A DNA stretch of 64,000 bases from Halogranum gelatinilyticum. GTDB lineage: Archaea > Halobacteriota > Halobacteria > Halobacteriales > Haloferacaceae. The notes under the pieces are model-generated. The model did not search any database. It was given only the letters and a program-made list of their open reading frames with translations, and was not told where the DNA came from. Both the position numbers and the translations under genes were made by a program. Positions within the stretch are counted from its first letter, which is position 1, and every line of letters starts with the position of its first letter. Where the stretch lies: the NCBI RefSeq assembly GCF_900103715.1, contig NZ_FNHL01000002.1:496001-560000 (forward strand), written 5' to 3'. Positions 1 through 34,454 of the stretch are shown piece after piece.

Positions 1-39
1 CAAAGAGCCTGTGTGTTTCGATGGGCTCTGACAGCCGCG

Positions 40-567
40 TTAGAGCAGCTCGTCGGCGATGATCTCGTACCCTGCCTCGCGCAGGCGGTACTCGTTCGGC
101 ATCGAGGCGATGCGAAGCACTCGATGACCGACAGCAGCGTTCACTCGCCGCGTGACCAGACTCCACCGGACGATCTCGTCGTCGGTGAAGCTGACCGACA
201 CGCCGTGTCGGTTACACACCTGGCTAACGATGGTTCGAATCTCACTGGGCGTAACTGCGGTGACTTTCTCGCCCTTGTCCTCGTCTGCTTCGTCGTCGAG
301 GATGAAACTCGTCTCACCGCCCTGCTGGGTCTTCTTGAGGTAACCGTCCTCTTCGACGATTTTGTTGAGGAGCGAGGTCGTCGTCTGGAGCGTGTCCTCT
401 TCCTCGTCGTCGTCCTCGTCGATGTGTTCGCTCACGTCGTTGTAGTAGAGGTGAGCGTTCAGCTGGCTGCGTGCGAACTCGGTGTTCGGAAGGTCGGCCG
501 CGATGACCTTCAGCAGCTTCGTTCGTTTCTCAGTCAATTCCTCGGTCGGGGTGGGATCTTCACTCAT
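40..567 (-). CDS. Acidic protein of unknown function
   Basis: A 175-residue soluble protein that I do not recognise. The ATG at 567 (MSEDPTP) is preferred over one five codons upstream because haloarchaeal proteins often begin this way. Residues about 50-58 are almost all Asp/Glu. The rest is charged with no membrane segment, and residues 105-175 look like a compact globular domain. It lies at the left edge of what looks like an accessory region, so it may belong to an integrated element. The reading frame is clean and acidic, which supports a real gene; its function is unknown. Confidence 0.6.
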   Translation of the reverse strand: MSEDPTPTEELTEKRTKLLKVIAADLPNTEFARSQLNAHLYYNDVSEHIDEDDDEEEDTLQTTTSLLNKIVEEDGYLKKTQQGGETSFILDDEADEDKGEKVTAVTPSEIRTIVSQVCNRHGVSVSFTDDEIVRWSLVTRRVNAAVGHRVLRIASMPNEYRLREAGYEIIADELL

Positions 568-876
568 TGCTGTAGCTCCCACGCCCGATTGACGACAGAT
601 TCAAGAAGCCGCCCACCAAATCGACTGATGAGCGGTGACAGTCCTGACTGTCGCCCGTCGGGCGTGCTGTTGTTGACCCGGCATCCAAGCCAACTTCCAC
701 ATTACCCTGGATGCAAACGGGTCCCGCGTCCGACTGCTTCTACGACGACCAACTTTGTCTGCACCTAGCTCTATCTAACTCCCCCCACTTAGTATTACCG
801 CAGCAACACCTACGACATCCACCAAAATGGTTAACAAGATAGCCCAATTAAACAATAGCATAGGTGGATACCGACT
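568..876. other. Intergenic gap between divergent genes
   Basis: This 309-base spacer separates two divergently read genes. Its right part (about 770-875) is clearly AT-richer than its left part. It carries an AATTAAACAAT stretch near 844 that could be a TATA element, and an AGGTGG ribosome-binding-like sequence at 863-868 ahead of the ATG at 877. Short reading frames here resemble no known protein. No tRNA or repeat is visible. Confidence 0.5.
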
Positions 877-1533
877 ATGGACGAGACAAAACAAATGATG
901 CCTTCGGATGATCGGGATAGGGGAATACTCACTCCAGATGATCGTAAGTTCCTGAAGGGAAAGAAAGAATTCTCGAGTGAACAATCTGAGCGGGATGCTC
1001 GCTACAGGATACGTAAGAGGGTCAAGAATTCGATATTGGACTTCAGTATCCTTCTACATCACCTTGACGAGAGAGATCGAAAGCAGGTATTCTCGAAGCA
1101 TATGGCGAAGTCTTCTGATGATGAGATATCTAGCGAGAAGCTACGCGAATTTGTTGAATCAACTATGTTCTCGCAAGGGATTTCCGACGCAATTTCTCTA
1201 CTATATCTGGGCGTCAGCGATGCTGGCGATTCATTTGAGGCGGTTCTCAAAGAAGGAGTTGCTGGTGCTGAGGAGAGTAAGGGATACTTGGTTGACAGCG
1301 TCTCGGTCGATATCGATGTTTCTCGTGGGAAGCCCGACATGGAAGATCTTGTTTCGAAGTTGAATAGTGGCGAACCCTTATCCGAAGAAGAGATTAGAGC
1401 AGTCATCAACTCTGGCCAATTTGACATCGATGCCGAGTCGCTTGATATGCTTCTCCAGCAGATATCATCTCAATTATCCGTAGAGTCTGAGGATGTCGAG
1501 ATTAATCTGAATTACGAACCAGATGACGAATAG
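877..1533 (+). CDS. Low-GC hypothetical protein
   Basis: A 218-residue acidic protein with no membrane segment and no family I recognise. A ribosome-binding-like AGGTGG precedes the ATG. The N-terminal 60 residues are charged and probably flexible. The middle (about 100-150) has hydrophobic helices, and the C-terminal third is rich in Glu/Asp/Ser. Codon use is much less GC-biased than in the housekeeping genes further right, which suggests transfer. It converges on the TGT-like/nuclease cassette, with 9 bases between the stop codons, so it may be a passenger of the same island. Confidence 0.6.
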   Translation: MDETKQMMPSDDRDRGILTPDDRKFLKGKKEFSSEQSERDARYRIRKRVKNSILDFSILLHHLDERDRKQVFSKHMAKSSDDEISSEKLREFVESTMFSQGISDAISLLYLGVSDAGDSFEAVLKEGVAGAEESKGYLVDSVSVDIDVSRGKPDMEDLVSKLNSGEPLSEEEIRAVINSGQFDIDAESLDMLLQQISSQLSVESEDVEINLNYEPDDE

Positions 1534-1542
1534 CGGTTAACT

Positions 1543-2814
1543 CTACGATGTCGTAGTGAGTGAGTAGTCAGACAACTCGCGCTGCTTCTCCTCTTCGACG
1601 TAGTGTTCTATCGCCGTTGCCCATTTCCGCAGGTGGTTCGCATTTGCAGCGTGGTCGGTGTCGTCCAACGCTTCCTGATACTTGTCGTCGCCGTCCCATA
1701 GTTCTCCAACGAGGTCATCGAGCGTCTCATTCGTGACAGTCTCGCGATGCCCGTCTCTGGTTGTGATATAGTGTTGGGCTCGAGCTTTGCGATCATCTGC
1801 GAGCTGGAATATGTCGCTCCAAGAGTTCATGACCGGGTCGCAGGCTTGACACTCACAGAGCGGGTCATCAAAGTCCGTGCCAAGGTCTTCGACGTCGTAG
1901 ACGTTGAGGAACTCCTTCACGGGGTTGTAGTAATATCGAACACTGTCACCACTGCCACCACCGGAGTCCGTTTTTTCCGATTTAGACTCGCCATGCTCGA
2001 TTCCAAAGCTTACACCACGGAGACCGAAGAAGGCCATTAGATTAGCGAAGTAGTCACTGTACATCATGTGCGGATCAACTCCTCGCTGGGAGACCCGTTC
2101 AACCAAGTCGAGAGCTTTGCAGAGTTCCCCGATAGAAACATCTCGCTTATCGAATCCATCAATCCACAGGAACACCTCTCGAACCGGAGCCTCCTCCACT
2201 GCACGTACAATCTCTCTTCTGTTGCTCTCGGTATGGATGAAGGATTTATCCACGTAGAAGCAGGGCTTGACGGGACAATCACTGTATTCGGCCGCGTAGT
2301 TGATAATCTCCTCATTCGCCCGGATATCTGGCCGACTATTGATCTTAACGTACCAAGGAACCAGGGCTCGAGGAGTTAGACTGGCAACGCTGTCGAGGTA
2401 GCGTCCTAGCTTGTTTTCGCTGGCCTCATCCAGCAAATCCAGTTGCAGGTCGCACGACTTCTCGATTATCTTCTTCTGGTCTTCGCGACTGAAGTCGAAG
2501 TAGTTGAGGTTGCTCCGATTTTCCAGCACGTCAGAGATTGGTGGCCCGTAGTATTCTGCCAGGTTACTCGCCCACGAGCGAAGCTCTCCGTTCGACTTTC
2601 GAAAGTTGTCTCCCTTCCTGAACTCGGGGAGGTACGGTTGAACGTAGAAGTCTATCTGCTGTTCCGGTTGGAGGTTGGACAGCGTCCCAGCGATCTTGTC
2701 TGTCTCTGTAACGACGAAATGAGACGAAACTATGAGAGAATCGTAGTAGGGTGCAGCACGCTCAATTTCTTTGTACTCGCCGAAGGTGTAGTAGTGGAGG
2801 CTATTTTCGAACAT
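1543..2814 (-). CDS. TGT/DpdA-like zinc-binding TIM-barrel protein
   Basis: This 423-residue protein carries Cys320, Cys322, Cys325 and His348. The spacing CxCx2Cx22H matches the zinc site of the tRNA-guanine transglycosylase (TGT) superfamily. Upstream, a YSDYFANLM...GLRGVSFGIEHGE stretch (about 252-276) resembles a late beta-alpha unit of a TIM barrel. TGT-fold enzymes exchange guanine for a 7-deazaguanine in tRNA; the DpdA branch does so in DNA. The ATG at 2814 overlaps the nuclease gene by 14 bases, so the two are translationally coupled. The superfamily assignment rests on the zinc motif. Base-exchange activity and a DNA target are inferences, and I could not place the catalytic aspartates. 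Confidence 0.6.
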   Translation of the reverse strand: MFENSLHYYTFGEYKEIERAAPYYDSLIVSSHFVVTETDKIAGTLSNLQPEQQIDFYVQPYLPEFRKGDNFRKSNGELRSWASNLAEYYGPPISDVLENRSNLNYFDFSREDQKKIIEKSCDLQLDLLDEASENKLGRYLDSVASLTPRALVPWYVKINSRPDIRANEEIINYAAEYSDCPVKPCFYVDKSFIHTESNRREIVRAVEEAPVREVFLWIDGFDKRDVSIGELCKALDLVERVSQRGVDPHMMYSDYFANLMAFFGLRGVSFGIEHGESKSEKTDSGGGSGDSVRYYYNPVKEFLNVYDVEDLGTDFDDPLCECQACDPVMNSWSDIFQLADDRKARAQHYITTRDGHRETVTNETLDDLVGELWDGDDKYQEALDDTDHAANANHLRKWATAIEHYVEEEKQRELSDYSLTTTS

Positions 2815-3196
2815 GGTTGCGGACGTATTCCTGCACCCGAGATTTCGCGTGTGTGCTAGGATCATTCCGCACAGGAGGTGATAAGCATTTCACATGAGTT
2901 CCTACTGATAGAAGACCTATCGGTGAATCATCAATCCGAGAGACGAGATCGTCGGTGATGTTCTCTTCCCAAACCGATAGGTAAGAGAAGTCCACGACTG
3001 AGGTGTTTCTCTCGGCTTGGTTGATTCCTCGCTTGAAGTCTCGAGATTTCAGTTCCACAGCGACCGTGGTATTGCCCTGTAAGGCGACGATGTCGATAGG
3101 GATAGAGTAGAGACGTGCCTCTGTTGCAAATTGGTACCCTTCTTCGCGGAGGTAGTCAGCGACAATGCCCAGTTGATATTTTTCCGACCAGTACAT
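2801..3196 (-). CDS. PD-(D/E)XK-type nuclease-like protein
   Basis: A 131-residue protein with a compact restriction-endonuclease-like core: Glu26 in TEARLY, Asp35 in IPIDIVAL, the VAVELK strand giving Glu48-x-Lys50, then Gln60 in the following helix. This is the usual E...D...ExK...Q layout of the PD-(D/E)XK fold seen in Holliday-junction resolvases and restriction enzymes. It sits between the YwgA-like gene (8-base gap) and the TGT-like gene (14-base overlap), so all three are probably one transcript. It could cut DNA according to base modification. Substrate and specificity cannot be read from the sequence. Confidence 0.65.
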   Translation of the reverse strand: MYWSEKYQLGIVADYLREEGYQFATEARLYSIPIDIVALQGNTTVAVELKSRDFKRGINQAERNTSVVDFSYLSVWEENITDDLVSRIDDSPIGLLSVGTHVKCLSPPVRNDPSTHAKSRVQEYVRNHVRK

Positions 3197-3203
3197 CAGA
3201 GAC

Positions 3204-3710
3204 CTACCCCAGAACGTCTTCCTTGATTTTCGACTTGTCGGTGTACTCTGGGTATTGCTCGTAAACGTACTCGAGGAGGTCGTCTAACTCCAGGTCATTG
3301 TATTTCTCGACGAGTGTCTCCAGATCTTCCTTCGTCTCGGGGTCAAGAACAGCGTCCAGCTCTTGGCTGATTTTGCGGCCTTTCTCAGTTATCACGAACT
3401 TCTTTCCGGCATGGTTGCTCCGATCCTCGGAGTCTCGGATGTAGTCATAGTCTTCGTCGGATTCAATTTCTTCGATGGCACCCAGAGAGATGAGGAACTC
3501 CAACGCGTCGAATGCACCTTCCGAAAAGGGACCGTAGTGGTAAGACTCGAATTCGAACGTGATGTCTTCGTAGAGGTTACTGAACTCGCTCTCGTGTTCG
3601 ATGAGGAAGAGTAGCTTCTGTAGGCGTGTGGTTCCCTCGATCTCGTCGGCATATCGGAAGAGCAGAAATGCGACGTCCTCTCTGCGGTCGATATCGTCGA
3701 TATTAGCCAT
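3204..3710 (-). CDS. YwgA/DUF4065-like helical protein
   Basis: A 168-residue protein starting MANIDDIDRRED. Residues 29-38 (RLQKLLFLIE) and 57-63 (YHYGPFS) are the hallmark of the YwgA/DUF4065 (Panacea-like) group, whose members appear in prophages, toxin-antitoxin pairs and defence islands. A winged-helix-like segment follows (about 64-125), then an acidic helical tail. It is the first gene of the cassette with the nuclease and TGT-like protein. By analogy it may be a regulator, antitoxin or specificity partner. The start at 3710 is chosen because an in-frame codon 32 residues upstream would add an atypical extension. Confidence 0.55.
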   Translation of the reverse strand: MANIDDIDRREDVAFLLFRYADEIEGTTRLQKLLFLIEHESEFSNLYEDITFEFESYHYGPFSEGAFDALEFLISLGAIEEIESDEDYDYIRDSEDRSNHAGKKFVITEKGRKISQELDAVLDPETKEDLETLVEKYNDLELDDLLEYVYEQYPEYTDKSKIKEDVLG

Positions 3711-3872
3711 ATCAAGCCTAATAGGGCGAGTATGGAATAGTGTTGTGGAGTGTGAATGTACGTTCTTCAATCTATTATATGGTGTCAATTGTGAACCGGT
3801 CCCCATCAGTCACTCGGGGTGAAAGCCCGTGAATACGTAATCAATTAAGTCCTACTTCATTGACTCTGGAAC

Positions 3873-4817
3873 CTACCACTCCTCTTCACGAACTGCTGTG
3901 TCTGGATCCATTTGCACATGACGTACTTGAATGTCTGGTGGGTTGGGGGAATTTTCTATTTGAGCCTTAGTGGCACCCATTTTAATCGCTGTTTCAAGAG
4001 ATGTTCTACCCTTGATTGGAACTATGAATTGGACGACTTCGGTCGAATAATTTGATCCATCCACTCCCTGATATTCAAGTCCTATCGAAAACGAATACAC
4101 ACCTATCCCAGACACCTCATGTAATTTCTGTGATATTAGCTCAAAAGCCCATGGTGAAAATCTATCGTTGCCATGTCCATATTCCTTTTTGACCAACACA
4201 CTTGGAGATATGATGAAAATATTCGACTGCTTAGGATGGAGATAGTTATCATCTGCTTGATACCAATCTAATTCACTTTCATCAAGAGTAACATCCTCAG
4301 TATGAGGTTTGAGAATCATGTCGTCTGATTTTGTATGTGGTGTGATCTTCACACGAATGTTGCTCGCAGGGCCGGTACCAATGTTCGAAATCTTCAGTTT
4401 AAATTGGCTACTTGGTTCGCTGTAAGGCCTTAATTTATCAACTACAAGATTCGGCTTTTGATTCAATGATAAGATTTCTTTTTGATCTCTCTGAATCTCG
4501 CTCTGGGAATCAAGAAGCGAAGTTTGTTTCTCTTGGAAGGAGGCCTGATCAGATAGTGACTCTGCTTGTGCAGAAAGGGCAGCCGCCTGATCGCTTAGGG
4601 CATCGGCTTGCTCTTGTTGTGTCTGTCCTGAACTCCAATACAGATACAAAAGCCCTAGGGTAAGGGTAGCGTCAATAATAATGCCAAATAGTTGGATTTC
4701 ATCCCCTTCCGGTGCCAACATTAGGATTAATATTGAAAGAATATAGAAACAGACCGTAGATAAGGCAAGAGCGAAGCTAGCATATACAAACTTATCAATT
4801 ATGTCTTGAATTTTCAT
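3873..4817 (-). CDS. Membrane protein with coiled-coil and soluble domain
   Basis: A 314-residue protein. Two transmembrane helices (about 12-35 and 45-63) are followed by a coiled coil (about 64-115) built from ALSDQA/ALSAQAESLSDQA repeats, then a beta-rich soluble domain of about 200 residues. The start at 4817 is supported by a CATATATG box about 28 nt upstream. Base composition is strikingly AT-rich and Lys/Asn/Ser use is higher than in neighbours, so the gene is probably of foreign origin. Similar two-TM plus coiled-coil designs occur in stress- or phage-related membrane sensors, but I recognise no family and assign no function. Confidence 0.65.
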   Translation of the reverse strand: MKIQDIIDKFVYASFALALSTVCFYILSILILMLAPEGDEIQLFGIIIDATLTLGLLYLYWSSGQTQQEQADALSDQAAALSAQAESLSDQASFQEKQTSLLDSQSEIQRDQKEILSLNQKPNLVVDKLRPYSEPSSQFKLKISNIGTGPASNIRVKITPHTKSDDMILKPHTEDVTLDESELDWYQADDNYLHPKQSNIFIISPSVLVKKEYGHGNDRFSPWAFELISQKLHEVSGIGVYSFSIGLEYQGVDGSNYSTEVVQFIVPIKGRTSLETAIKMGATKAQIENSPNPPDIQVRHVQMDPDTAVREEEW

Positions 4818-4841
4818 TAGAGGAGAAATTATAAGCATCAC

Positions 4842-4850
4842 ATATATGCC
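4842..4850 (-). promoter_or_regulatory. TATA box of the coiled-coil membrane gene
   Basis: CATATATG lies about 28 nt upstream of the ATG at 4817 on the minus strand, the spacing expected for a leaderless haloarchaeal transcript. It favours that start over the GTG/ATG codons at 4841 and 4838. Confidence 0.45.
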
Positions 4851-4948
4851 TGTTTGTCACACAGTTGTGAGCTGGTTTTCACGCCAGCATATATTGATAT
4901 CACAACTGAATTGTGGTCAATGAATTCACTTTTCCACTGAGGTTTTCA

Positions 4949-5284
4949 TTAAACAAACCCAGCCCACTCACTCGGTCTCACTTTATCCGGTGGCCGCGGT
5001 CTCGGCATCGGCCGCATCAACTCCGCGTTCACCTTCCCCTCGAGGTACAACTCGCCCCACACAGTAATCTCGAAGTGATCTGCATCGGCATCGTCGGAGA
5101 TCGGCGCGACCATCCCTGCGTGAGACAGTACACGACACCGCTCTCGCACGCGACGAGCTGAAGCGTCGGCACTCAACTCACGCGAGATGAACTCGGGTGA
5201 GCAGAGGCCTTCAGCTTGCAGCATCTCCAGTATCCGGTCATCTACAGCATTCTGCCACCGACCACTCTTCCTCGGAGCCGACAT
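4949..5284 (-). CDS. PhiH1-repressor-like winged-helix protein
   Basis: A 111-residue DNA-binding protein. Residues about 10-60 (AVDDRILEMLQAEG...RVRERCRVLSHAGM) form the helix-turn-helix of the phiH1-repressor-like family that is common in haloarchaeal proviruses. Residues 61-85 give the wing with FEITVWGELYLEG, followed by a Pro/Arg-rich tail. It lies 11 bases after the related gene at 5296-5595 in the same direction, a tandem repressor pair. It probably helps control the opposing recombinase operon through sites in the 5.6-5.8 kb spacer. Confidence 0.7.
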   Translation of the reverse strand: MSAPRKSGRWQNAVDDRILEMLQAEGLCSPEFISRELSADASARRVRERCRVLSHAGMVAPISDDADADHFEITVWGELYLEGKVNAELMRPMPRPRPPDKVRPSEWAGFV

Positions 5285-5295
5285 TGATAATTTTC

Positions 5296-5595
5296 CTACG
5301 AACCGGATTCAGCGACGCCATTGCTGTTTCCGTTATCGCCTTCATCTTCAACAGCGTTTACCGGACGGTCCTGCTCAGCATCCCACTCGCCGTCGAGATA
5401 CTGTTCACCCTTCTCGGTGATGATGTAGACACCGTTGCCGAGAGCGGTGAGCATCCCATTTTCGGCCAGTTTTTTCAGACGACGAGATACGTGGGCGCGA
5501 GATACGTGGATGAATCCGCTATCCGCCAACTGCTTCGGAGAGCCAGAACCCTCCTCACGAATCACCTCGAGGATTCTGTCGTCCCAAATAGTCAT
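5296..5595 (-). CDS. PhiH1-repressor-like winged-helix protein
   Basis: A 99-residue regulator beginning MTIWDDRILEVIREEG, the typical opening of the family. The helix-turn-helix covers about 1-50 and the wing reads GNGVYIITEKGEQYLDGEW, with an acidic tail. The ATG at 5595 is preferred over 5616 because the upstream TTTATT near 5630 is then at promoter distance. It is divergent from the zinc-finger/PadR/integrase operon. A perfect palindrome at 5696-5711 lies in the shared spacer. It is likely the repressor of the integrated element, or of its own promoter. Confidence 0.75.
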   Translation of the reverse strand: MTIWDDRILEVIREEGSGSPKQLADSGFIHVSRAHVSRRLKKLAENGMLTALGNGVYIITEKGEQYLDGEWDAEQDRPVNAVEDEGDNGNSNGVAESGS

Positions 5596-5695
5596 CCACG
5601 AACCCGAATGTCGCATTAGATGCGAATAAACACGGGCGTTGGGTATACAATTGGTTTCCTACCGATAGTATTCGGGCATACTGTTACGACACGTC

Positions 5696-5711
5696 GTTAC
5701 ATATATGTAAC
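5696..5711. promoter_or_regulatory. Perfect 16-bp palindrome, likely operator
   Basis: GTTACATATATGTAAC is perfectly self-complementary and lies in the spacer between the winged-helix pair and the recombinase operon. Just upstream at 5683-5700 is a second GTTAC copy, with an ACGAC/GTCGT inverted pair inside. The central ATATAT could also serve as a TATA element, so binding of a dimeric repressor here would block transcription. Confidence 0.55.
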
Positions 5712-5775
5712 AACGGTTCTACAGCGTAGATGCGGAGTTGTGAGACGAGCTGACGGCTGGTGATGATTTTGTAGG

Positions 5776-5808
5776 CCCCGCGGTGGTGCTGGAACCACCA
5801 CCACGGGG
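5776..5808 (+). other. GC-rich hairpin upstream of the zinc-finger gene
   Basis: CCCCGCGGTGGTG (5776-5788) pairs with CACCACCACGGGG (5796-5808) with a single mismatch and a 7-nt loop. It sits 18 nt before the start codon at 5826, in the probable leader of the zinc-finger/PadR/integrase operon. It could limit translation or transcription of that operon; no known riboswitch is recognised. Confidence 0.45.
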
Positions 5809-5825
5809 AAGCTCCGTCAACCGCT

Positions 5826-6242
5826 ATGACGGAAATTAAGACCGCGGGATTGCAGTCCCGCACGACAGTGGAGGCACCGCCCTTTGATAAGAGCGACGAC
5901 GCTGACTGCGCAGTCTGTGGCATCCGACCAGCCGAAGGGCTGGACGCACGGACCCGCGAGGGCGTCTGTTCTACGTGTGCGCGTCTCCGGTGCGACGGAG
6001 GACGCGACGAGTACGACTTCTTCGACCTCGAGGGAGAGACAGAAATCGACGTCCGGTGTACCACACCGTGTGGCGCGCCGGACCTCTGCGACGGCTGGAA
6101 CGAGACCGTCGAACTCGACGAACCAGCGTACATCGACGAGAACGAGCGCGTTCACTTCCCCGGCTTCGAGTGGCAGTGTCCCGAGTGTGGGAACCCGTAC
6201 GAGTTCGTCGTCAACGGTGTGGAGGTGAGCAACCTTGTCTGA
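5826..6242 (+). CDS. Zinc-ribbon protein of integrated element
   Basis: A 138-residue protein with several cysteine pairs. Cys28/Cys31 and Cys48/Cys51 form a treble-clef or HNH-like zinc knuckle, CTTPCGAPDLC follows in the middle, and a CPEC pair lies near residue 121. No catalytic residues are evident, so it is best read as a small zinc-binding, probably nucleic-acid-binding protein. It is the first gene of an overlapping operon: its last codons overlap the TTG start of the PadR gene by 8 bases. Such proteins are frequent in haloarchaeal proviruses and plasmids. Confidence 0.6.
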   Translation: MTEIKTAGLQSRTTVEAPPFDKSDDADCAVCGIRPAEGLDARTREGVCSTCARLRCDGGRDEYDFFDLEGETEIDVRCTTPCGAPDLCDGWNETVELDEPAYIDENERVHFPGFEWQCPECGNPYEFVVNGVEVSNLV

Positions 6243-6582
6243 AGCCACGCAGTCCCGTGAGGAACTGTTGGTCTCCGACCTCACCGCGTTCCAGACTAAC
6301 GCACTGTACGTTATCGCAGGTGAAGAGGACACTGAGCAGTGCTACGGGCTGGAAATCATGCGGCGTCTCAGAGAGGTCTACGGTAGGGTCATTCACCACA
6401 GCCGCCTCTACACGAACCTCGAGAGACTCGTCGACGATGACTTCGTCGCCAAAGGTCAACTCGACGAGCGCACGAACTTCTACGTCCTCACCGAGAAGGG
6501 ACAGTACGCGCTTCGTGAATACCTCGAGTGGCAGGCTCGTCACTTGGGTCCAGAAGTTTCCGAGGAAGGTGACGACGCATGA
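6235..6582 (+). CDS. PadR-family winged-helix regulator
   Basis: A 115-residue protein. FQTNALYVIAGEED...CYGLEIMRRLREVYG opens a PadR winged helix, and YTNLERLVDDDFV...RTNFYVLTEKGQ is its recognition helix and wing (about 18-95). The start is TTG at 6235, inside the preceding gene, because no ATG gives the full first helix. It overlaps the recombinase gene by 4 bases (ATGA), so the proteins are coupled. It probably regulates excision or integration of the element. Confidence 0.75.
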   Translation: MSEATQSREELLVSDLTAFQTNALYVIAGEEDTEQCYGLEIMRRLREVYGRVIHHSRLYTNLERLVDDDFVAKGQLDERTNFYVLTEKGQYALREYLEWQARHLGPEVSEEGDDA

Positions 6583-7595
6583 CCGACGACCTCGAGCCGC
6601 TCAAACCCCGCGAGGCGGTGAAGATGTATCTCGACTCTCGACGCAACGAGGTCAGCGACCAGACGCTGCAGTCGCACGACTATCGACTCCAGAAGTTCGT
6701 CGAGTGGTGCCAGGACAACGAGATTACCAACATGAACGACCTCGGCGGCCGCGACCTCCACTTCTTCCGCGTTCACCGCCGGGAGGAGGACGGGTTGAAG
6801 CCGGTCACGATGCAGGGACAGCTCTCGACACTCCGGCGGTTCCTGCAGTTCTGTGCGACGGTCGACGCCGTCGACTCCAACCTCGCCTCGAAAATCATCC
6901 TCCCGCGGCTCAAGCGCGGCGAGGAGGCTCGCGACATCAAACTCGAGCCCGACCACGCTGAAGCGATTCTCGAGTGGCTCGACACGTACCACTACGCGAG
7001 CCGGAAGCACGTCGAGGTACTTCTCGCGTGGCACACCGGGATGCGTATCGGTGCGATGCACGCCATCGATGTCGACGACGTCGACTTCGAGGACCTCTGC
7101 ATCGAACTCCGCCACCGACCGGAGAGCGACACGCCGCTGAAGAACGGTATCGACGGCGAACGTGACATCAGTATCACGCTGGAGATCGGGCAGGTGCTCC
7201 ACGACTACCTCGAGGTCAACCACTTCGACGTGACCGACGAGTTCGGACGGAAGCCGTTCCTCTCGTCTTCACACGGCCGCGTCTCGATTTCGAACATCCG
7301 CGGTGACTTCTACGCGTCCACTCGCCCCTGCAATTGGGGGAACTGTCCGCACGGACGCGAGCTCGCCGAGTGCGAGGCCATCAACCGTACCTCGGCGAGT
7401 CGCTGTCCGTCGTCTGTGAGTGCTCACCCGATTCGTCGTGGGTCAATCACTCACCAACTACGGCAGGACATCCCGACCGACATCGTGAGCGGCCGCGTGA
7501 ACGCGACGCCCGAGATCATCGACAAGCACTACGACCGTCGGACGAAGCGCGACCGGATGGAACAGCGTCGTCAGCACCTGGAGAAGCTGGAGTGA
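6579..7595 (+). CDS. Tyrosine recombinase (XerC/D-like integrase)
   Basis: A 338-residue site-specific recombinase. The N-terminal SAM-like core-binding domain covers about 5-110. The catalytic domain shows Arg156 in HTGMRIGAM, His283-x-x-Arg286 in HPIRRGS and the nucleophile Tyr318 in KHYDRRT. A Cys-rich insertion (Cys251, 256, 265, 276) lies between the beta hairpin and the HxxR box and may bind zinc. It is the last gene of a three-gene overlapping operon at the right border of the accessory region. It would cut and join the attachment site by a 3'-phosphotyrosine intermediate. All catalytic residues look intact. Confidence 0.85.
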   Translation: MTDDLEPLKPREAVKMYLDSRRNEVSDQTLQSHDYRLQKFVEWCQDNEITNMNDLGGRDLHFFRVHRREEDGLKPVTMQGQLSTLRRFLQFCATVDAVDSNLASKIILPRLKRGEEARDIKLEPDHAEAILEWLDTYHYASRKHVEVLLAWHTGMRIGAMHAIDVDDVDFEDLCIELRHRPESDTPLKNGIDGERDISITLEIGQVLHDYLEVNHFDVTDEFGRKPFLSSSHGRVSISNIRGDFYASTRPCNWGNCPHGRELAECEAINRTSASRCPSSVSAHPIRRGSITHQLRQDIPTDIVSGRVNATPEIIDKHYDRRTKRDRMEQRRQHLEKLE

Positions 7596-7924
7596 TTCTG
7601 GTGCGCTTTTTCACAACCCCAATTTCCCGCCCGAACCTGCCGGCCAGTTTCCGACTAGGTTCTTCGCCAGTCGCCGCGTTGGCCCATCCACTTTGCACTC
7701 GGCCCTTGGCCGAGTGCGGCTGGGGCCAGACAACTCCCCAGCCACTTAACTTCGTTACAACACCACCGAGAGACTTCTCGGTGCTGTCTTCTCGACTCCT
7801 CACCACCGGGAATGACGCCTGTTTCGTCCGTGGACGTCCACCGGAGCCTCGAAGACAACTGTCTGAAGCATAGGGTCTCCCGTTTAGCTAAATATTTAGA
7901 TGAGCATCTAAACGCAGCACCGTC
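7596..7924. other. Convergent gap with hairpins, possible att region
   Basis: This 329-base gap between the recombinase and photolyase stops holds no credible gene. It contains a perfect 10-bp stem with a CTT loop (GCACTCGGCC at 7695-7704 with GGCCGAGTGC at 7708-7717) and a perfect 8-bp stem (CACCGAGA at 7764-7771 with TCTCGGTG at 7776-7783). The short reading frames across it lack domain-like composition. As it lies directly downstream of an integrase it may hold the element's attachment site, but no matching direct repeat was seen at the left side. Confidence 0.4.
7883..7912. repeat. Two adjacent AT-rich palindromes
   Basis: TTTAGCTAAA (7883-7892) and the pair TTTAGATG/CATCTAAA (7895-7902 and 7905-7912, AG between) are both perfectly symmetric and share the TTTAG..CTAAA arms. 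They lie 12 bases beyond the photolyase stop codon. They may form its terminator hairpin, or be a protein-binding site at the border of the integrated element. Confidence 0.45.
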
Positions 7925-9592
7925 TCACTCGAAACTGCCCAGCGTCGCCTGGTCACTGTCGCCGCCTCCCTGCCCGTCACCCGCGTCGTCGTCTGCAACA
8001 GGTTCCGGGCCTCCACGTCGAGAGAACGACGCTCGGCGACGGATCTCCGGATCCGCCATCGCTTCGCTCGCTCGCTCCTGCAACTTCCCGAAGCGGTCCT
8101 GTGCCGACTGTCGTTTGGCCTCGTAGCCGACGATGGGCCGGGGGTAGTCCTCACCGACTTCGACGCCGCACTCCGACTGGACGTGGAGGGGTGTCTTTTC
8201 GGGTTGGTCGAGATAGTCGGCTGGGAGGTCGCGGAGTTCCGGTACCCATCGGTAGACGAACTCGCCGTCAGGGTCGTTGTCGCGGACCTGCTTGCGTGGG
8301 TTGTAGATCCGCATGGAGTGGACGCCGGTGACGCCGGTCTGCATCTGCCACTGGGTGTAGTTGATGGCCGGGTCGGCGTCGACGAGATGGTAGTAGAACC
8401 AGTCCGCACCGACCCGCCAGGGCTGTTCGAGGATATAGCCGAAAAAGGAGGCGCACATCGCCCGCATTCGGAAGTTGAGCCAGCCCGTCTCGCGGAGACA
8501 GCGCATCGAGGCGTCGACCATCGGAAACCCCGTCTCGCCGCGTTTCCATGTCTCGACGAGGTCGGCGTCGTGGTTCGAGCGGTTGAACCCCCGGAACACC
8601 GGGTTGACCGCGACGTCCATCCAGCCGGGCCAGTCTTCGAGTTTCTGGTTGTAGTGGCGGTTCCAGTAGAGTCGCGAGACGAACATCGACCGCCCGCTGC
8701 CGTCGGGTGCGTCGCGCTGGACGCGCTGGTAGACCTCGCGGACGGAGAGACAGCCGAAGCGCAGGTAGCCCGAGAGCCGACTGGTGCCCGTCTCTGCGGC
8801 ACTCGGCGAGGAGATAGACGACGGATACGACCGGATCACGTCGACGAAGCGGTCCAGCCGGGCGACCCCCGCCCGGCGGCCGCCCTTCGGGACGCCGGTC
8901 TTCTCGGGAGAGACGTCGTACTGTTCCTCGATTGCCGTGGTCGTGACCGTCGAGTCCACGCCGTGGTCGCCGAATCCGGAGTCGTCGGGTGCGACGGTGT
9001 CAGTCTCGAAGTAGGTCTCGACGTGGTCGCTCCAGTTCTCGCGGGGGTCGTCGACACCGCGACGAAGCCCGTCGCCGTCGACGAAGGTGACGCCGAAGCG
9101 GTCGGCGAGGCGGTCGTCGCGGCGGCGGCCGTAGCGGCCGGTCGGTTCGGCCGTGGTGACGACGTCCCAGCCGCGGTCGACGAACTGTCCGAGAATCGTT
9201 TCGGGGTCGCCGTGGGCGAGGACGAGGTCGACGCCGCGCTCGGCGTACTGCTCGCCGAGGTCGTCGAGCGACTCGTGGAGAAACCGGCGGCGGGCGTCGC
9301 AGGCGAGCGAGCCGTCGGTGTAGAACTGGGGGTCGAAGAGGAACAGCGGACAGACGGTGTCGTACTCGCGGGTGGCGTAGGTGACGGCCGGGTTGTCGGC
9401 GACGCGGAGGTCGCGGCGATGCCAGAGGACGCACGCGGTGCCGTCGCTCTCGCTCTCGTCGGTGACAGCGGTGCCGACGTCTTCGGCGTCGTCGACGTCT
9501 GTGATTCCGTCACCGTCTTCGGCGTCAGCAACGTCTCCGGTGTCGCCACCGGCGGGGCTGTCGTCCGGTGTCGGCTGCGTCTCGCGGGACAC
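7925..9592 (-). CDS. phr: Deoxyribodipyrimidine photolyase
   Basis: A 555-residue flavoprotein that repairs UV-induced pyrimidine dimers using light. The N-terminal alpha/beta antenna domain begins at VLWHRRDLRVADNPA. The helical FAD domain contains SRLSGYLRFGC, the GETGFPMVDASMRCLRETGW segment and WLNFRMRAM. The C-terminal tail is disordered and ends QATLGSFE, which resembles a PCNA-interaction peptide. A GTG start at 9592 (VSRETQ) is chosen because the farther ATG at 9706 would run into the rhomboid gene and add a low-complexity leader. Even so, about 50 acidic residues precede the domain. It belongs to the large CPD-photolyase/cryptochrome family; exact lesion specificity is not certain. 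Confidence 0.9.
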   Translation of the reverse strand: MSRETQPTPDDSPAGGDTGDVADAEDGDGITDVDDAEDVGTAVTDESESDGTACVLWHRRDLRVADNPAVTYATREYDTVCPLFLFDPQFYTDGSLACDARRRFLHESLDDLGEQYAERGVDLVLAHGDPETILGQFVDRGWDVVTTAEPTGRYGRRRDDRLADRFGVTFVDGDGLRRGVDDPRENWSDHVETYFETDTVAPDDSGFGDHGVDSTVTTTAIEEQYDVSPEKTGVPKGGRRAGVARLDRFVDVIRSYPSSISSPSAAETGTSRLSGYLRFGCLSVREVYQRVQRDAPDGSGRSMFVSRLYWNRHYNQKLEDWPGWMDVAVNPVFRGFNRSNHDADLVETWKRGETGFPMVDASMRCLRETGWLNFRMRAMCASFFGYILEQPWRVGADWFYYHLVDADPAINYTQWQMQTGVTGVHSMRIYNPRKQVRDNDPDGEFVYRWVPELRDLPADYLDQPEKTPLHVQSECGVEVGEDYPRPIVGYEAKRQSAQDRFGKLQERASEAMADPEIRRRASFSRRGGPEPVADDDAGDGQGGGDSDQATLGSFE

Positions 9593-29216: not shown

Positions 29217-30530
29217 TCAGAGGAGGACGACCGCGAGGACGACACTCACGACTGCACCGGCGAGCGTCGCGAGGAAGTTCACGCTCTGGTTGCCGATGCG
29301 GTCGCCTTCGACGGTTGCCCCGAGCAGGCTGTCGACGGTCATGCCGCCGAGACCGCCGCCGACGATGACGAGTGCGCCGAAGAGCGGGTCGGCGATAGGC
29401 AGGCTGACGACGGCGATGGCGGCGACGAGGGCCGCACCGGCGATACCGGCGAGTTCGCCCTGCCACGTCACCCCGCCGTCGGTGCCGGGCGGGACGCGTT
29501 CGAGCGTCGTGATGAGCCGCGGCGTGTCGAACAGGCCGCCGATCTCGCTGGAGAGGGTGTCGCTCATGGCCGTCGCGAGCGACCCGGTGAAGGCGAACAG
29601 AAACAGCGTTCCGGGCAGCATGACCATCTCGCTGGCCGCGAAGCCGATGACGGCAAAGAGGGCGACGGCGGCGTTGCCGAGGACGTTGCCGCTGCCGCGG
29701 GCACCCTCGTTGTCCTCGGCGACGCCGCGGTCCAGTTTGTCGTCGTATTTGAACTTCGTCGAGAGGCCGCCGACGCCGAAGAAGGCGATGAGGACGGCGA
29801 ACCAGCCGAAGCCGCCGAGGATGATGGTCAACACGCCGAGCAGCACACCCGCCAGCATCCCGGTGACGGAGGCCGTTCCGAGCGCGTAAGAAGCGTAGCC
29901 GAGGACGACCATCACGGCCAGCGCGCCGACGATCTCCAGCGGCGGAATCGTCGTGACGAGCTGGGCGAAGAACCACAGGAGTAGCCCCACGGAGAGCATG
30001 ACGAGCGGGTCGTCGCGCTCGTAGAGCACGGAGCGGAGCAGCGCGGCGACGAGCGCGCCGGTCGAGGCCAGAAAGGCGGCGACGGCGGGGTCGATACTCG
30101 TCGTGGTGACACTCGCGGTCGCGACCTGGCCGACCGTCCCGGCGAGGAAGCCGACGACGGTGAAGCCCAGCGTCCCGATGAAGGGGTCGTCGGAGTAGTC
30201 GCCGACGAACCGCTCGCCGAGGTTGCCGTAGGCGAGGACGAGCACCGCGGTCACGAACAGGCTCACCGGCATCGGGTCGGTGAGCACGGTCGCGAGCAGT
30301 GCGAGTCCGGTCGCGGCGAGCGAGAAGCCCGCCAGCCCATTGAGGCGGCGGTCCTCGTAGTCACCGGGACGTGCGAACAGCTCGAACAGCGGGCCGTCGT
30401 CGACGACAAAGGCCGCCAACGCCGCGATGACGGCGAACGGGACGGCCGCCGCGGCACCGAGTATCGGTGCCGCGAGCGACAGCGTCCCCACGGCGGCGAA
30501 CCCGCCTGCACGCCGGAGTGTCGAAGTCAC
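29217..30530 (-). CDS. DUF92 integral membrane protein (VTE6-like)
   Basis: A 437-residue membrane protein with about 12 hydrophobic segments. The DUF92/COG1836 block is seen from GFGWFAVLIAFFGVGGLSTKFKY through GTLFLFAFTGSLATAMSDTLSSEIG to GALVIVGGGLGGMTVDSLLGATVEG. Plant VTE6 of this family phosphorylates phytyl phosphate, so a lipid-phosphate kinase role is possible. The GTG start at 30530 is favoured by GGTTAAGTG about 28 nt upstream; the much longer in-frame extension has the composition of an antisense shadow of the opposite gene. It is divergent from the cis-prenyltransferase-like gene. Confidence 0.8.
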   Translation of the reverse strand: MTSTLRRAGGFAAVGTLSLAAPILGAAAAVPFAVIAALAAFVVDDGPLFELFARPGDYEDRRLNGLAGFSLAATGLALLATVLTDPMPVSLFVTAVLVLAYGNLGERFVGDYSDDPFIGTLGFTVVGFLAGTVGQVATASVTTTSIDPAVAAFLASTGALVAALLRSVLYERDDPLVMLSVGLLLWFFAQLVTTIPPLEIVGALAVMVVLGYASYALGTASVTGMLAGVLLGVLTIILGGFGWFAVLIAFFGVGGLSTKFKYDDKLDRGVAEDNEGARGSGNVLGNAAVALFAVIGFAASEMVMLPGTLFLFAFTGSLATAMSDTLSSEIGGLFDTPRLITTLERVPPGTDGGVTWQGELAGIAGAALVAAIAVVSLPIADPLFGALVIVGGGLGGMTVDSLLGATVEGDRIGNQSVNFLATLAGAVVSVVLAVVLL

Positions 30531-30638: not shown

Positions 30639-31247
30639 GTGGGACTCTACGACGCCTATCTCGCGATGCGTCACCGCCGCGCCGAGGCCGAGCCACCGGC
30701 ACATATCGCGGTCGTCATCACCGAGCGCGACCTCCTGGAACAGGGCGCGTACGACACGCTGGAGGCCTTCCTCGGCTGGGCCTTCGAGTACGGTGCCGAA
30801 CGCGTCACGGTCTCGGTGAGCGTCCTCGACGAGGCCGTCGCGCCGACGCTCGAACGCGAACTCCGCGACGTCGACGCTCCCCGTCCGGTCGCGGTCCGCG
30901 GTCCCGGCGACACCGAGCGCGCCGACGAACCCATCCAGGTGAGCATCGGGCTCGGCGGCAAACACGAGTTCGCCGAGGCCGTCCGCGCGCTCGCAGAAGA
31001 GGTCGACGCGGGGCGGCTGGCCCCCAAGGACATCGACGAGAGCGACGTCGAAGACCGCCTCGTCTTCCCCGAGGAACCCGACCTCGTCATCAAGACCGGC
31101 GCGGAACGGCTCTCGGACTTCATGATCTGGCAGTCGGTCTACTCGGAACTCTACTTCACCGACGTCAACTGGCGAGATTTCAGGAAGCGCGACTATCTCC
31201 GCGCCGTCTTGGACTATCAAGATCGGCAGCGGCGGTTCGGCCGCTAG
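30639..31247 (+). CDS. cis-Prenyltransferase-like subunit lacking catalytic motif
   Basis: A 202-residue protein of the undecaprenyl-diphosphate-synthase family. The C-terminal half is clear: VIKTGAERLSDFMIWQSVYSELYFTD, then RDFRKRDYLRAVLDYQDRQRRFGR with the RxG motif. The N-terminal strand reads PAHIAVVITERD where active enzymes have an Asp in DGNRR; that Asp is replaced by Thr28. So it cannot be a complete enzyme alone, but resembles the non-catalytic NgBR-type partner. GTG start at 30639, with TTTAA about 27 nt upstream. Confidence 0.8.
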   Translation: MGLYDAYLAMRHRRAEAEPPAHIAVVITERDLLEQGAYDTLEAFLGWAFEYGAERVTVSVSVLDEAVAPTLERELRDVDAPRPVAVRGPGDTERADEPIQVSIGLGGKHEFAEAVRALAEEVDAGRLAPKDIDESDVEDRLVFPEEPDLVIKTGAERLSDFMIWQSVYSELYFTDVNWRDFRKRDYLRAVLDYQDRQRRFGR

Positions 31248-31292
31248 GCCGAGCCATCAAATCTCTGATTCGCGTGGTTCGGTCGCTGACGG

Positions 31293-31718
31293 TCACGTCC
31301 GCGCCGCCAGATATACCACCGCCAGCTCGTGGAGTGCGGGATGGGGCATCGCTCGCGGGCGAGCCTCCCAGACGAGTTCGAGTGTCTCACGGAGCGGGCA
31401 CTCCCTCTCGGTTGCGAGTGCCGTCGCGAGCACCGTCGCGCTCCGTGAGATACCGGCACTGCAGTTGACGAGGAGCGTCCCGTCGCGTCGGTGAAGTGTC
31501 CGGGCGGTGTCGACCGCTGCCGCGAACGCGGCCCAGTCGTTGCCGGGACCGTCGGTCAGCGGGTGGTGGTGCGTCGTAAGCGGAGACGGCTCACTCGACA
31601 CGGAGAGCACGGCGTCGAAGGTTCCCTCGGGCAGTCGGGTCGCTGCGTGACGGTTCCCGATGAAGAGTTTGTCGTCGATACGTCGGACGGTGATGTGGGT
31701 TCGGTCGTCTCCAGCCAT
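31293..31718 (-). CDS. Dual-specificity protein phosphatase-like
   Basis: A 141-residue phosphatase of the cysteine-dependent type. VNCSAGISRSATVLATAL gives the CxxGxxR active-site loop (Cys86, Arg92), preceded by Asp61 in the GNDWAAF loop as a candidate general acid. The usual His before Cys is Asn. It is likely a dual-specificity protein phosphatase, though members of this fold also dephosphorylate lipids or nucleotides. It lies between the two cis-prenyltransferase-like genes, 37 bases downstream of the catalytic one in the same direction, so they may be cotranscribed. Confidence 0.85.
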   Translation of the reverse strand: MAGDDRTHITVRRIDDKLFIGNRHAATRLPEGTFDAVLSVSSEPSPLTTHHHPLTDGPGNDWAAFAAAVDTARTLHRRDGTLLVNCSAGISRSATVLATALATERECPLRETLELVWEARPRAMPHPALHELAVVYLAART

Positions 31719-31754
31719 GGCTGTACGACCCGGCCGTGACCCGAGACGAGCGAG

Positions 31755-32684
31755 TCAGTCCGCCGTCTCGTTGCCCTGCCGCTCCAGCTCCGCCGACAGC
31801 TCCTCGGCACCGCGGTTCGACAGCTGCTCGCGCAGGCGACTGCCGACCGCGCGGGCCTCGTCGAGTTCGACGCTCGCCAGCGCGCGGACCAGCGCGACGG
31901 CGCGCTCCGTTCTGGTGCGCTGCCACGACGCCTCGCGGGACTCGTAGGTGCGGATGCCGCGCAGGAAGTCGACCTTCGAGAACTCCGGCCAGTAGGGAGC
32001 ACAGAAGTAGACGGCCGCCTCGTTGCCGTTGGCGTGCCACGGCAGGAAGTTCGAGGTGCGCTCGTCGCCGCCGGTGCGGATGATGAGGTCGACGTCGCGG
32101 ACGGGCTGGCGGTAGAGCCGCGATTCGACCGCCGCGCTGTCGATGTCTGCGGGGTCGAGGTCGCCCGCCTCGACAGCCTCGGCGACGTCGCGGGCGGCTC
32201 GGAGAAGTTCGTTGCGGCCGCCGTAGGCGAGCGCGATGTTCAATCTGAACTCCTCGTAGTCGGCAGTGCGGCGCTCGGCGTAATCGATGGCGTCGGTGAC
32301 GCGCTCGGGGAGGCGGTCGATGTCGCCGATTGCGCGGATGCAGACGCCGTTGTCGTGGACGCGCTCGGCGTCGGCGAACTCGTAGAGCTTGTCCTCCAAG
32401 AGGTCGAACAGCGGTTCGAGTTCGCCCTCGGGGCGGTTGAAGTTCTCCGTCGAGAAGGCGTAGAGCGTCAGCTCCTCGATACCGAGTTCCTCACACCAGT
32501 CGAGGACCTGTTCCGTGGTCTGGGCGCCCGCGCGGTGGCCGTCGGGGGCGTCCTCGCCACGGTTGCGCGCGTAGCGGCGGTTGCCGTCCTGAATGATGGC
32601 GACGTGGGCTGGCCCGTCGTTGAGTTCGCGGCGAAGCAGCCGCTCGTACCCGCGGGCGAACGCCGTCCGGAGCCACTGGCGCAT
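31755..32684 (-). CDS. uppS: Catalytic cis-prenyltransferase (UppS-like)
   Basis: A 309-residue enzyme that extends isoprenoid diphosphates with cis double bonds to make the polyprenyl/dolichol lipid carrier used in glycosylation. PAHVAIIQDGNRRYARNRG gives the catalytic Asp33 and phosphate-binding DGNRR. LYAFSTENFNRP and DLIIRTGGDERTSNFLPW are further family motifs. Where the family usually ends its domain with RRFGG, this protein has SREASWQR, so it lacks the RxG motif. The ATG at 32684 has GTATACG about 28 nt upstream. Confidence 0.9.
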   Translation of the reverse strand: MRQWLRTAFARGYERLLRRELNDGPAHVAIIQDGNRRYARNRGEDAPDGHRAGAQTTEQVLDWCEELGIEELTLYAFSTENFNRPEGELEPLFDLLEDKLYEFADAERVHDNGVCIRAIGDIDRLPERVTDAIDYAERRTADYEEFRLNIALAYGGRNELLRAARDVAEAVEAGDLDPADIDSAAVESRLYRQPVRDVDLIIRTGGDERTSNFLPWHANGNEAAVYFCAPYWPEFSKVDFLRGIRTYESREASWQRTRTERAVALVRALASVELDEARAVGSRLREQLSNRGAEELSAELERQGNETAD

Positions 32685-33392: not shown

Positions 33393-34454
33393 ATGAAACA
33401 GGTGGACGCGGACCTCTCTTCGCTCGACCGTGCCATCATCAACGCCTTCCAGGGTGGCTTCCCGGTCGTCGAACGCCCGTTCGAGCCAGCGGCCGCAGCG
33501 CTCCGCGAACGCGGCGTCGACGTCTCGGCATCCGAACTCTGCGAGCGTATCCGCGAACTGGACGACGAGGGTGTCCTGACGCGGTTCGGCGCGCTCGTCA
33601 ACGCCCAGGAGATCGGCGGCAACGCGACGCTCGTCGCGATGCACGCGCCGCCCGAACGCTTCGACGAGATCAACGAGCTGGTCAACGGTCACATCGAGGT
33701 CGCGCACAACTACGAGCGCGAGCATCCCCACCTCAACATGTGGTTCGTCGTCAGCGTCGCCGACGAGGACCGCATCGAGGAGGTACTGGCCGAAATCGAG
33801 GAAGAGACCGGCCAGCCGACCTACAACCTCCCCAAGGTTCGGGAGTTCCGCGTCGAGGCGAAGTTCCTCGTCGACGGCCCGGTTCCCGAGGGCGACGTCG
33901 ACCTCTCGCATCTCGGCCCGGACGTCGAACCGAGCGGCCGGACGACGCTCACACCGGAGGAGCGCGATCTGGTTCTGGAGATTCAGGGCGGGCTTCCCAT
34001 CACGGAGACGCCCTACGCCGACGTCGCCGACGCGCTCGGCGCGGAGACCGAGTGGGTCGTCGAGACCATCAAGCGGTTCAATCAGGAGGGGAGGGTCCGT
34101 CGCGTCGGCGTCATCCCGAACCACTACGCGCTCGGCTACACCGAGAACGGGATGACCGTCTGGAACGTCCCCGACGAGCTCGTTCCTGAAGTGGGCCCCG
34201 CCGTGGCCGGACTGGACTTCGTGACCCACTGCTACCAGCGGCCCCGCCACGAGGGCGTCTGGCCGTACAACTTCTTCGCGATGACCCACGGCCGCAGCGA
34301 GGAGGAGAGCCAGCGACGGATTCAGGAAGTGAAGGCGAAGATGGAGGAGTTCTGGGACGTCGGCGACGACGACTGGGACTCGCTGTTCTCGACGCGCATC
34401 CTGAAGAAGACGGGCATCCGTCTGGCCGAACGCGCCGACGCCAACACGGAGTGA
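33393..34454 (+). CDS. ahbB: Siroheme decarboxylase, fused AhbA-AhbB type
   Basis: A 353-residue protein made of two AsnC/Lrp-like halves, about 1-170 and about 185-353. Each half has a winged helix (SLDRAIINAFQGGFPV; ERDLVLEIQGGLPIT) and a ferredoxin-like part with the conserved NYEREHPHLNMWFVVS and CYQRPRHEGVWPYNFFAMTH stretches. AhbA and AhbB normally form a complex that decarboxylates siroheme to 12,18-didecarboxysiroheme in the archaeal heme route; here they are one chain. It starts an operon with precorrin-2 dehydrogenase (1-base gap) and hemA, which supports the role. Confidence 0.88.
   Translation: MKQVDADLSSLDRAIINAFQGGFPVVERPFEPAAAALRERGVDVSASELCERIRELDDEGVLTRFGALVNAQEIGGNATLVAMHAPPERFDEINELVNGHIEVAHNYEREHPHLNMWFVVSVADEDRIEEVLAEIEEETGQPTYNLPKVREFRVEAKFLVDGPVPEGDVDLSHLGPDVEPSGRTTLTPEERDLVLEIQGGLPITETPYADVADALGAETEWVVETIKRFNQEGRVRRVGVIPNHYALGYTENGMTVWNVPDELVPEVGPAVAGLDFVTHCYQRPRHEGVWPYNFFAMTHGRSEEESQRRIQEVKAKMEEFWDVGDDDWDSLFSTRILKKTGIRLAERADANTE

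Follow-up and report, generated by a model that had tools for sequence, protein, structure and literature searches.

A pair of neighbouring genes in the haloarchaeon Halogranum gelatinilyticum raises the question whether two members of the cis-prenyltransferase family (Pfam PF01255) work as two enzymes or as the two subunits of one. The genes lie on opposite strands of the 64,000-nucleotide stretch of DNA that was analysed (hereafter the window; positions 496,001 to 560,000 of contig NZ_FNHL01000002.1) and are the only PF01255 genes in the source genome, which is 99.7% complete. Pfam and NCBIfam place both under undecaprenyl diphosphate synthase, and given this shared label the pair is likely annotated as two separate enzymes. 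A sequence-only reading had proposed that the two products form an obligate heterodimer, one having kept the catalytic aspartate and lost the C-terminal RxG motif, and the other having done the reverse.

Both precedents on which that reading drew are found in the literature. MM_0618 and MM_1083 of Methanosarcina mazei are a reported heteromeric enzyme making C45-50 chains (cited in PMC8131916), and the human structure agrees with donation of the RxG motif by NgBR to the active site of DHDDS across the dimer (PMC7573591). No description of a haloarchaeal heteromeric cis-prenyltransferase was found in the open-licence PMC literature. The phylum-wide distribution of such enzymes is unstated in the open-licence papers found; it may already be described in Emi et al. 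2019, reportedly the primary paper on the M. mazei heteromer, or in Grabinska 2017.

We conclude from the motifs and their conservation that the two genes very probably encode a single heteromeric cis-prenyltransferase making the dolichol precursor, with the RxG of the partner completing the active site.

Complementary motif losses in the two genes

The features of the locus are listed in Table 1. The catalytic protein matched PF01255 with a score of 237 bits over profile positions 1-216 of 219, while the partner scored 93 bits over positions 117-219 only. Thus, the limits of the profile matches alone indicate complementarity, the catalytic protein lacking the last residues and the partner the first half. 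Translation of the open reading frames bore out the motifs as first read, with Asp33 (codon 32588-32586) lying inside QDGNRR and SREASWQR standing in place of RRFGG in the catalytic protein, and Thr28 and the RQRRFGR end being present in the partner. The nearest solved relative of the catalytic protein is human DHDDS (phmmer, 2.4e-48). The diphosphate-binding loop is missing from the window partner, and the loop columns are gapped in nearly all partners (68/71 at catalytic column 49). The partner translation (202 aa, starting MGLYDAYLAMRHRRAEAEPPAHIAV) contains no hydrophobic segment that would provide an N-terminal membrane anchor. Among the best 80 of 485 loci, the closest named relatives are from Halogranum (90% for the partner).

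Table 1. Position, strand and character of the features at the gene pair (window coordinates)
Feature	Position	Strand	Remarks
DUF92/TIGR00297 membrane protein, start codon uncertain	29217..30530	-	PF01940, 191 bits; divergent from partner
Non-catalytic partner, NgBR-like in role (proposed)	30639..31247	+	202 aa; GTG at 30639
Thr28 codon, at the catalytic Asp position	30720..30722	+	Thr in 80/80 named haloarchaeal partners
Tail RQRRFGR-stop, RxG = R199-F200-G201	31224..31247	+	One residue after the motif, then TAG
Dual-specificity-phosphatase-like gene between the pair	31293..31718	-	PF00782, 36.9 bits
Catalytic subunit, DHDDS-like	31755..32684	-	309 aa; ATG at 32684
C-terminal extension, residues 259-309	31758..31910	-	Predicted helices 274-285 and 290-305
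SREASWQR (residues 249-256) in place of the expected RRFGG	31917..31940	-	Inside the continuous predicted helix 237-270
D33-G-N-R-R37, Mg and allylic diphosphate site (predicted)	32574..32588	-	Invariant in 51/51 aligned catalytic proteins

The DUF92 gene is a regular neighbour of the pair, being present in 57 of the 63 full 20-kb named haloarchaeal loci; the window protein has ∼200 extra N-terminal residues. An earlier study, which handles uppS as one gene family (arCOG01532), connected DUF92 with uppS and with a kinase-type step in isoprenoid metabolism (PMC5898192). The phosphatase-like insert was found in 2/63 full named loci and, being this rare, lies outside the conserved core. Further along the window, a 353-aa open reading frame at 33393-34454 (+) matches the NCBIfam families of both AhbA and AhbB, apparently a fusion of the two siroheme decarboxylase subunits, and the adjoining reading frames read as SirC- and HemA-like. 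Window positions 1-8000 have a G+C content of 0.51-0.55, compared with 0.64-0.69 elsewhere, suggesting acquired DNA.

Distribution of the pair in haloarchaea and across the phylum

Co-occurrence across haloarchaea, which the sequence-only reading had asked about, was surveyed in 242 genomes, each at least 90% complete. PF01255 matches were found in all 242, with exactly two genes in 232, three or four in 9, and a single match in one draft (G072), which has the partner only; neither family nor profile search found a catalytic gene in G072. Searching with the partner protein gave matches in 242/242 genomes, and inspection of the three weakest identified two divergent true partners and one 43-aa fragment at a contig end (G235), preceded by sequence that we take to be an adapter-read artefact. 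The divergent partners of family f11 (n = 3) still end in RRYGR or RRFGR. Eight of the nine multi-copy genomes have extra catalytic-type genes (G061, G068, G097, G104, G147, G148, G194 and G225), and G194 has a second partner besides. The ninth, G002, has a normal pair together with a 622-aa open reading frame (L275, 1489-3354, minus strand) that matches PF01255 weakly and is without DGN.

Residue-level counts for haloarchaea come from 80 named loci, which are the best-scoring of 485 and lean to close relatives. Within these best 80, T28, R196, R198, R199 and G201 are present in every partner, and all 80 partners end in R[RK]xGx-stop. A catalytic gene lies at most 10 kb from the partner in 68/80 loci, and the two genes are convergent in all 68. 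DGNxR without RRxG is found in 65/68 of these catalytic proteins; the remaining three are also without RRxG, their N-terminal part being missing from the reading frame used (those of L067 and L114 reach the contig end, and that of L066 is split over two reading frames).

Beyond haloarchaea, one genome per genus was searched in full for 50 genera. In 49 of them, a full-length match is accompanied by a second one that reaches the end of the profile but not its N-terminal part; the fiftieth genus has neither subunit, profile search included. All 49 partners end in R[RK]xGx-stop and have no DGN, while DGNxR is present and RRxG absent in 50/50 catalytic proteins (49 genomes plus one plasmid copy; the counts use all from L150-L234). 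The exact complementarity of the losses, initially read from a single pair, thus holds in haloarchaeal and non-haloarchaeal genomes alike. Outside haloarchaea, extra catalytic copies lie on G259:C2 and NC_014254; contig C2 of G259 has the same catalytic copy as the Methanohalobium evestigatum plasmid record. In an even sample of the phylum (Halobacteriota in GTDB terms) comprising 119 genomes, there were exactly two PF01255 matches in 112, three or four in 5 and none in 2. The split trait is therefore not special to haloarchaea and runs through the phylum sample. The two genomes without a match, G248 and G256 (genus g81, family f18; ∼91% complete), yielded no gene for either subunit in family or profile searches. 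Viral contigs contained no relative of either subunit.

Wherever sequences from the whole-genome searches were inspected, no catalytic gene was without a partner, so that the situation named at the outset as contrary to a heterodimer, the partner being absent where the catalytic protein lacks RxG, did not occur in these genomes. Losses are almost absent, however, and co-occurrence therefore says little on the dependence of one subunit on the other. Since this test is nearly powerless, it is the complementary motifs and the constraint on them that carry the case for a heteromer.

Outside haloarchaea, the two genes lie within ∼3 kb of each other in 17/49 genomes, convergent in 17/17, and are non-adjacent in the other 32. 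The 3′ ends of some of the tail-to-tail pairs overlap (L150, L154). A convergent layout is unusual for genes that function together.

Alternatively, the partner could have a function separate from that of the catalytic subunit, such as that of a regulatory or prenyl-binding pseudo-enzyme that forms homodimers, and its full conservation, its own gene on the opposite strand and the 32 non-haloarchaeal genomes with separated genes all fit such a role. It would then be difficult to see why the partner keeps an active-site motif without the site that uses it, why both genes are jointly absent in two genomes of one genus, and why adjacent genes are always tail to tail (17/17 and 68/68). We regard an independent function as very improbable.

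Opposite constraint on the two motifs

Constraint was measured on alignments of partners (A3, 56 rows: 51 of 59 extracted proteins, the window partner and four named haloarchaeal rows) and of catalytic proteins (A4, 51 rows: 46 of 63 extracted proteins, the window protein and four named haloarchaeal rows), drawn from L150-L248 and L003 with odd lengths and near-copies omitted. The catalytic and partner counts exclude three MM_0014-like proteins as well as three neighbouring open reading frames that scored weakly (18-41 bits) against the partner profile. A joint alignment combined 75 catalytic and 71 partner rows.

In the joint alignment, R or K at position 199 together with G201 occurs in register in 71/71 partner rows and 0/75 catalytic rows; 6/75 catalytic proteins have an out-of-register RxG near the C-terminus. 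Asp is present at the catalytic column in 15/71 partners, but without the DGN context. Phylum-wide, the Asp/loop region has a mean entropy of 1.38 bits in catalytic proteins versus 2.31 bits in the corresponding stretch of partners, and the tail region shows the opposite, with 1.04 bits in partners versus 2.72 bits in catalytic proteins. The tail is the most conserved stretch of the partner, having the lowest mean entropy among the six measured. On the catalytic side, conservation is lost phylum-wide at columns 246-258 (the same 2.72 bits), whereas the preceding columns 198-245 retain it (0.79 bits). The alignments thus indicate that selection is maintaining each motif once, and not both in the same protein.

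Among haloarchaeal catalytic proteins, the SREASWQR stretch is fairly conserved, with R250 and R261 invariant and S253 and W254 at least 90% conserved, so that the replacement has probably acquired another role; on the structural model, it may perhaps contribute to the long helix predicted for residues 237-270.

The tail conservation also bears on a second alternative, in which the catalytic subunit needs no RxG and works by itself as a homodimer, with the partner as an accessory acting on chain length, stability or membrane docking from outside the active site. An enzyme of the family can dispense with the motif, since MM_0014, the third M. mazei enzyme, is RxG-less, ends in TLGG and is active (PMC8131916), and yeast Nus1 is without a canonical RxG (PMC7573591). 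Proteins of the MM_0014 type, however, form a separate short class ending in TLGG that occurs beside the pair in L167-L169, and an accessory role gives no reason for the conservation of the partner tail or for its end one residue past the motif in 49/49 and 80/80 partners. An accessory partner is accordingly an unlikely explanation, and we favour the heteromeric enzyme, in which mutual need of the two subunits would be expected.

Comparison with human and bacterial enzymes and a proposed active site

The best solved relative of the catalytic profile is human DHDDS (2.5e-72), with E. coli UppS close behind (8.1e-70), and Foldseek ranks 1-8 for the catalytic model are all DHDDS chains. From the phmmer alignment, catalytic D33 corresponds to DHDDS D34, and R36, R37, E80, N81, R84, R203, R209 and S211 correspond to DHDDS R37, R38, E81, N82, R85, R205, R211 and S213. 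The DHDDS substrate ligands named in the human structure thus have identical counterparts in the archaeal catalytic protein. In the 51-row alignment, D33, R36, R37, N81, R84, R203, R209 and S211 are invariant, and E80 is at least 90% conserved. By analogy, the catalytic subunit would bind Mg and the allylic diphosphate via D33, R36, R37 and R84, and isopentenyl diphosphate via R203, R209 and S211.

What the partner would supply to this site is suggested by NgBR, where the phosphate of the isopentenyl diphosphate site is held by the backbone nitrogens of L291 and G292, whilst the C-terminal carboxylate of K293 meets DHDDS R37 and R85 (PMC7573591). We propose that the partner no longer has an active site of its own but has kept the dimer-forming C-terminal half, and that its R199-F200-G201-R202 would cross the interface into the catalytic pocket in the way NgBR R290-L291-G292-K293 enters that of DHDDS.

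Like DHDDS, the window catalytic subunit has the Asp, no RxG and helices after the core; those of the model that lie beyond the catalytic core span residues 237-270, 274-285 and 290-305. In DHDDS, a C-terminal helix-turn-helix builds the tetramer, a dimer of heterodimers (PMC7573591), and the window subunits may likewise assemble into a higher oligomer. Like NgBR, the window partner has its RxG one residue before the C-terminus; unlike NgBR, it shows no sign of an N-terminal anchor, and its profile score is nearer to bacterial UppS (124 bits) than to NgBR, which scores far lower (52 bits). A special kinship of the partner to NgBR is therefore unsupported. The partner AF2 model (mean pLDDT 84.4) has the family fold, and VIA-align gave Z-scores of 13.9 to 15.5 for UppS, plant enzymes, DHDDS and NgBR alike, so that the fold comparison cannot separate NgBR from UppS.

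Bacterial UppS shares fold and family with the window proteins, but 7/7 UppS controls have both motifs in one chain, whereas in the window the Asp and the RxG are split over two proteins. A parallel is found in M. mazei, which is of the same phylum and has two paralogous family proteins beside the RxG-less MM_0014; the same three classes are found in the sampled genomes. Family f13 pairs (including G259) fall in the catalytic and partner tree groups described below. Elimination suggests that the window pair may be orthologous to MM_0618/MM_1083, and we would class it as a haloarchaeal example of the heteromer type known from M. mazei and eukaryotes.

Age of the split

A tree of 86 rows (39 catalytic, 39 partner, 7 bacteria and one eukaryote) separated a catalytic group (support 100/93) from a partner group (100/100), although it includes three very long partner rows and its bootstrap had not settled. 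With two separate groups, the split appears older than the phylum radiation, and the data support a heteromer that is the ancestral, near-universal dolichol-chain enzyme of the phylum, split once before its radiation.

DHDDS joined the archaeal catalytic clade in the 86-row tree (99/90). In a stricter tree, with the C-termini cut, the partners removed and 26 of the 39 catalytic rows used, DHDDS fell between archaea and bacteria, with support of 94/79 for its grouping with archaea and 97/92 on the opposite side, and its kinship to the archaeal catalytic clade is at most suggested by these trees. That the same split, before the phylum radiation, also gave rise to eukaryotic DHDDS/NgBR, in place of a separate origin, is possible but not likely. 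As the pair is near-invariant in the phylum sample, the origin of the eukaryotic complex is testable with Asgard and other archaea.

Product and significance

The product of the heteromer would be a linear cis-polyprenyl diphosphate, to be converted to the dolichyl phosphate sugar carrier. In Haloferax volcanii, N-glycans are assembled on dolichol phosphate (PMC3871713); together with the DUF92 neighbour, this makes a precursor of dolichyl phosphate the most likely product of the pair. If the two genes do encode one enzyme, they would together form the unit for the dolichol step in archaeal N-glycosylation, in a group that is genetically tractable and includes H. volcanii. Mutations in human DHDDS and NgBR lead to disease (PMC7573591), and the archaeal pair would, as one enzyme, offer a soluble, anchor-free model for the human complex.
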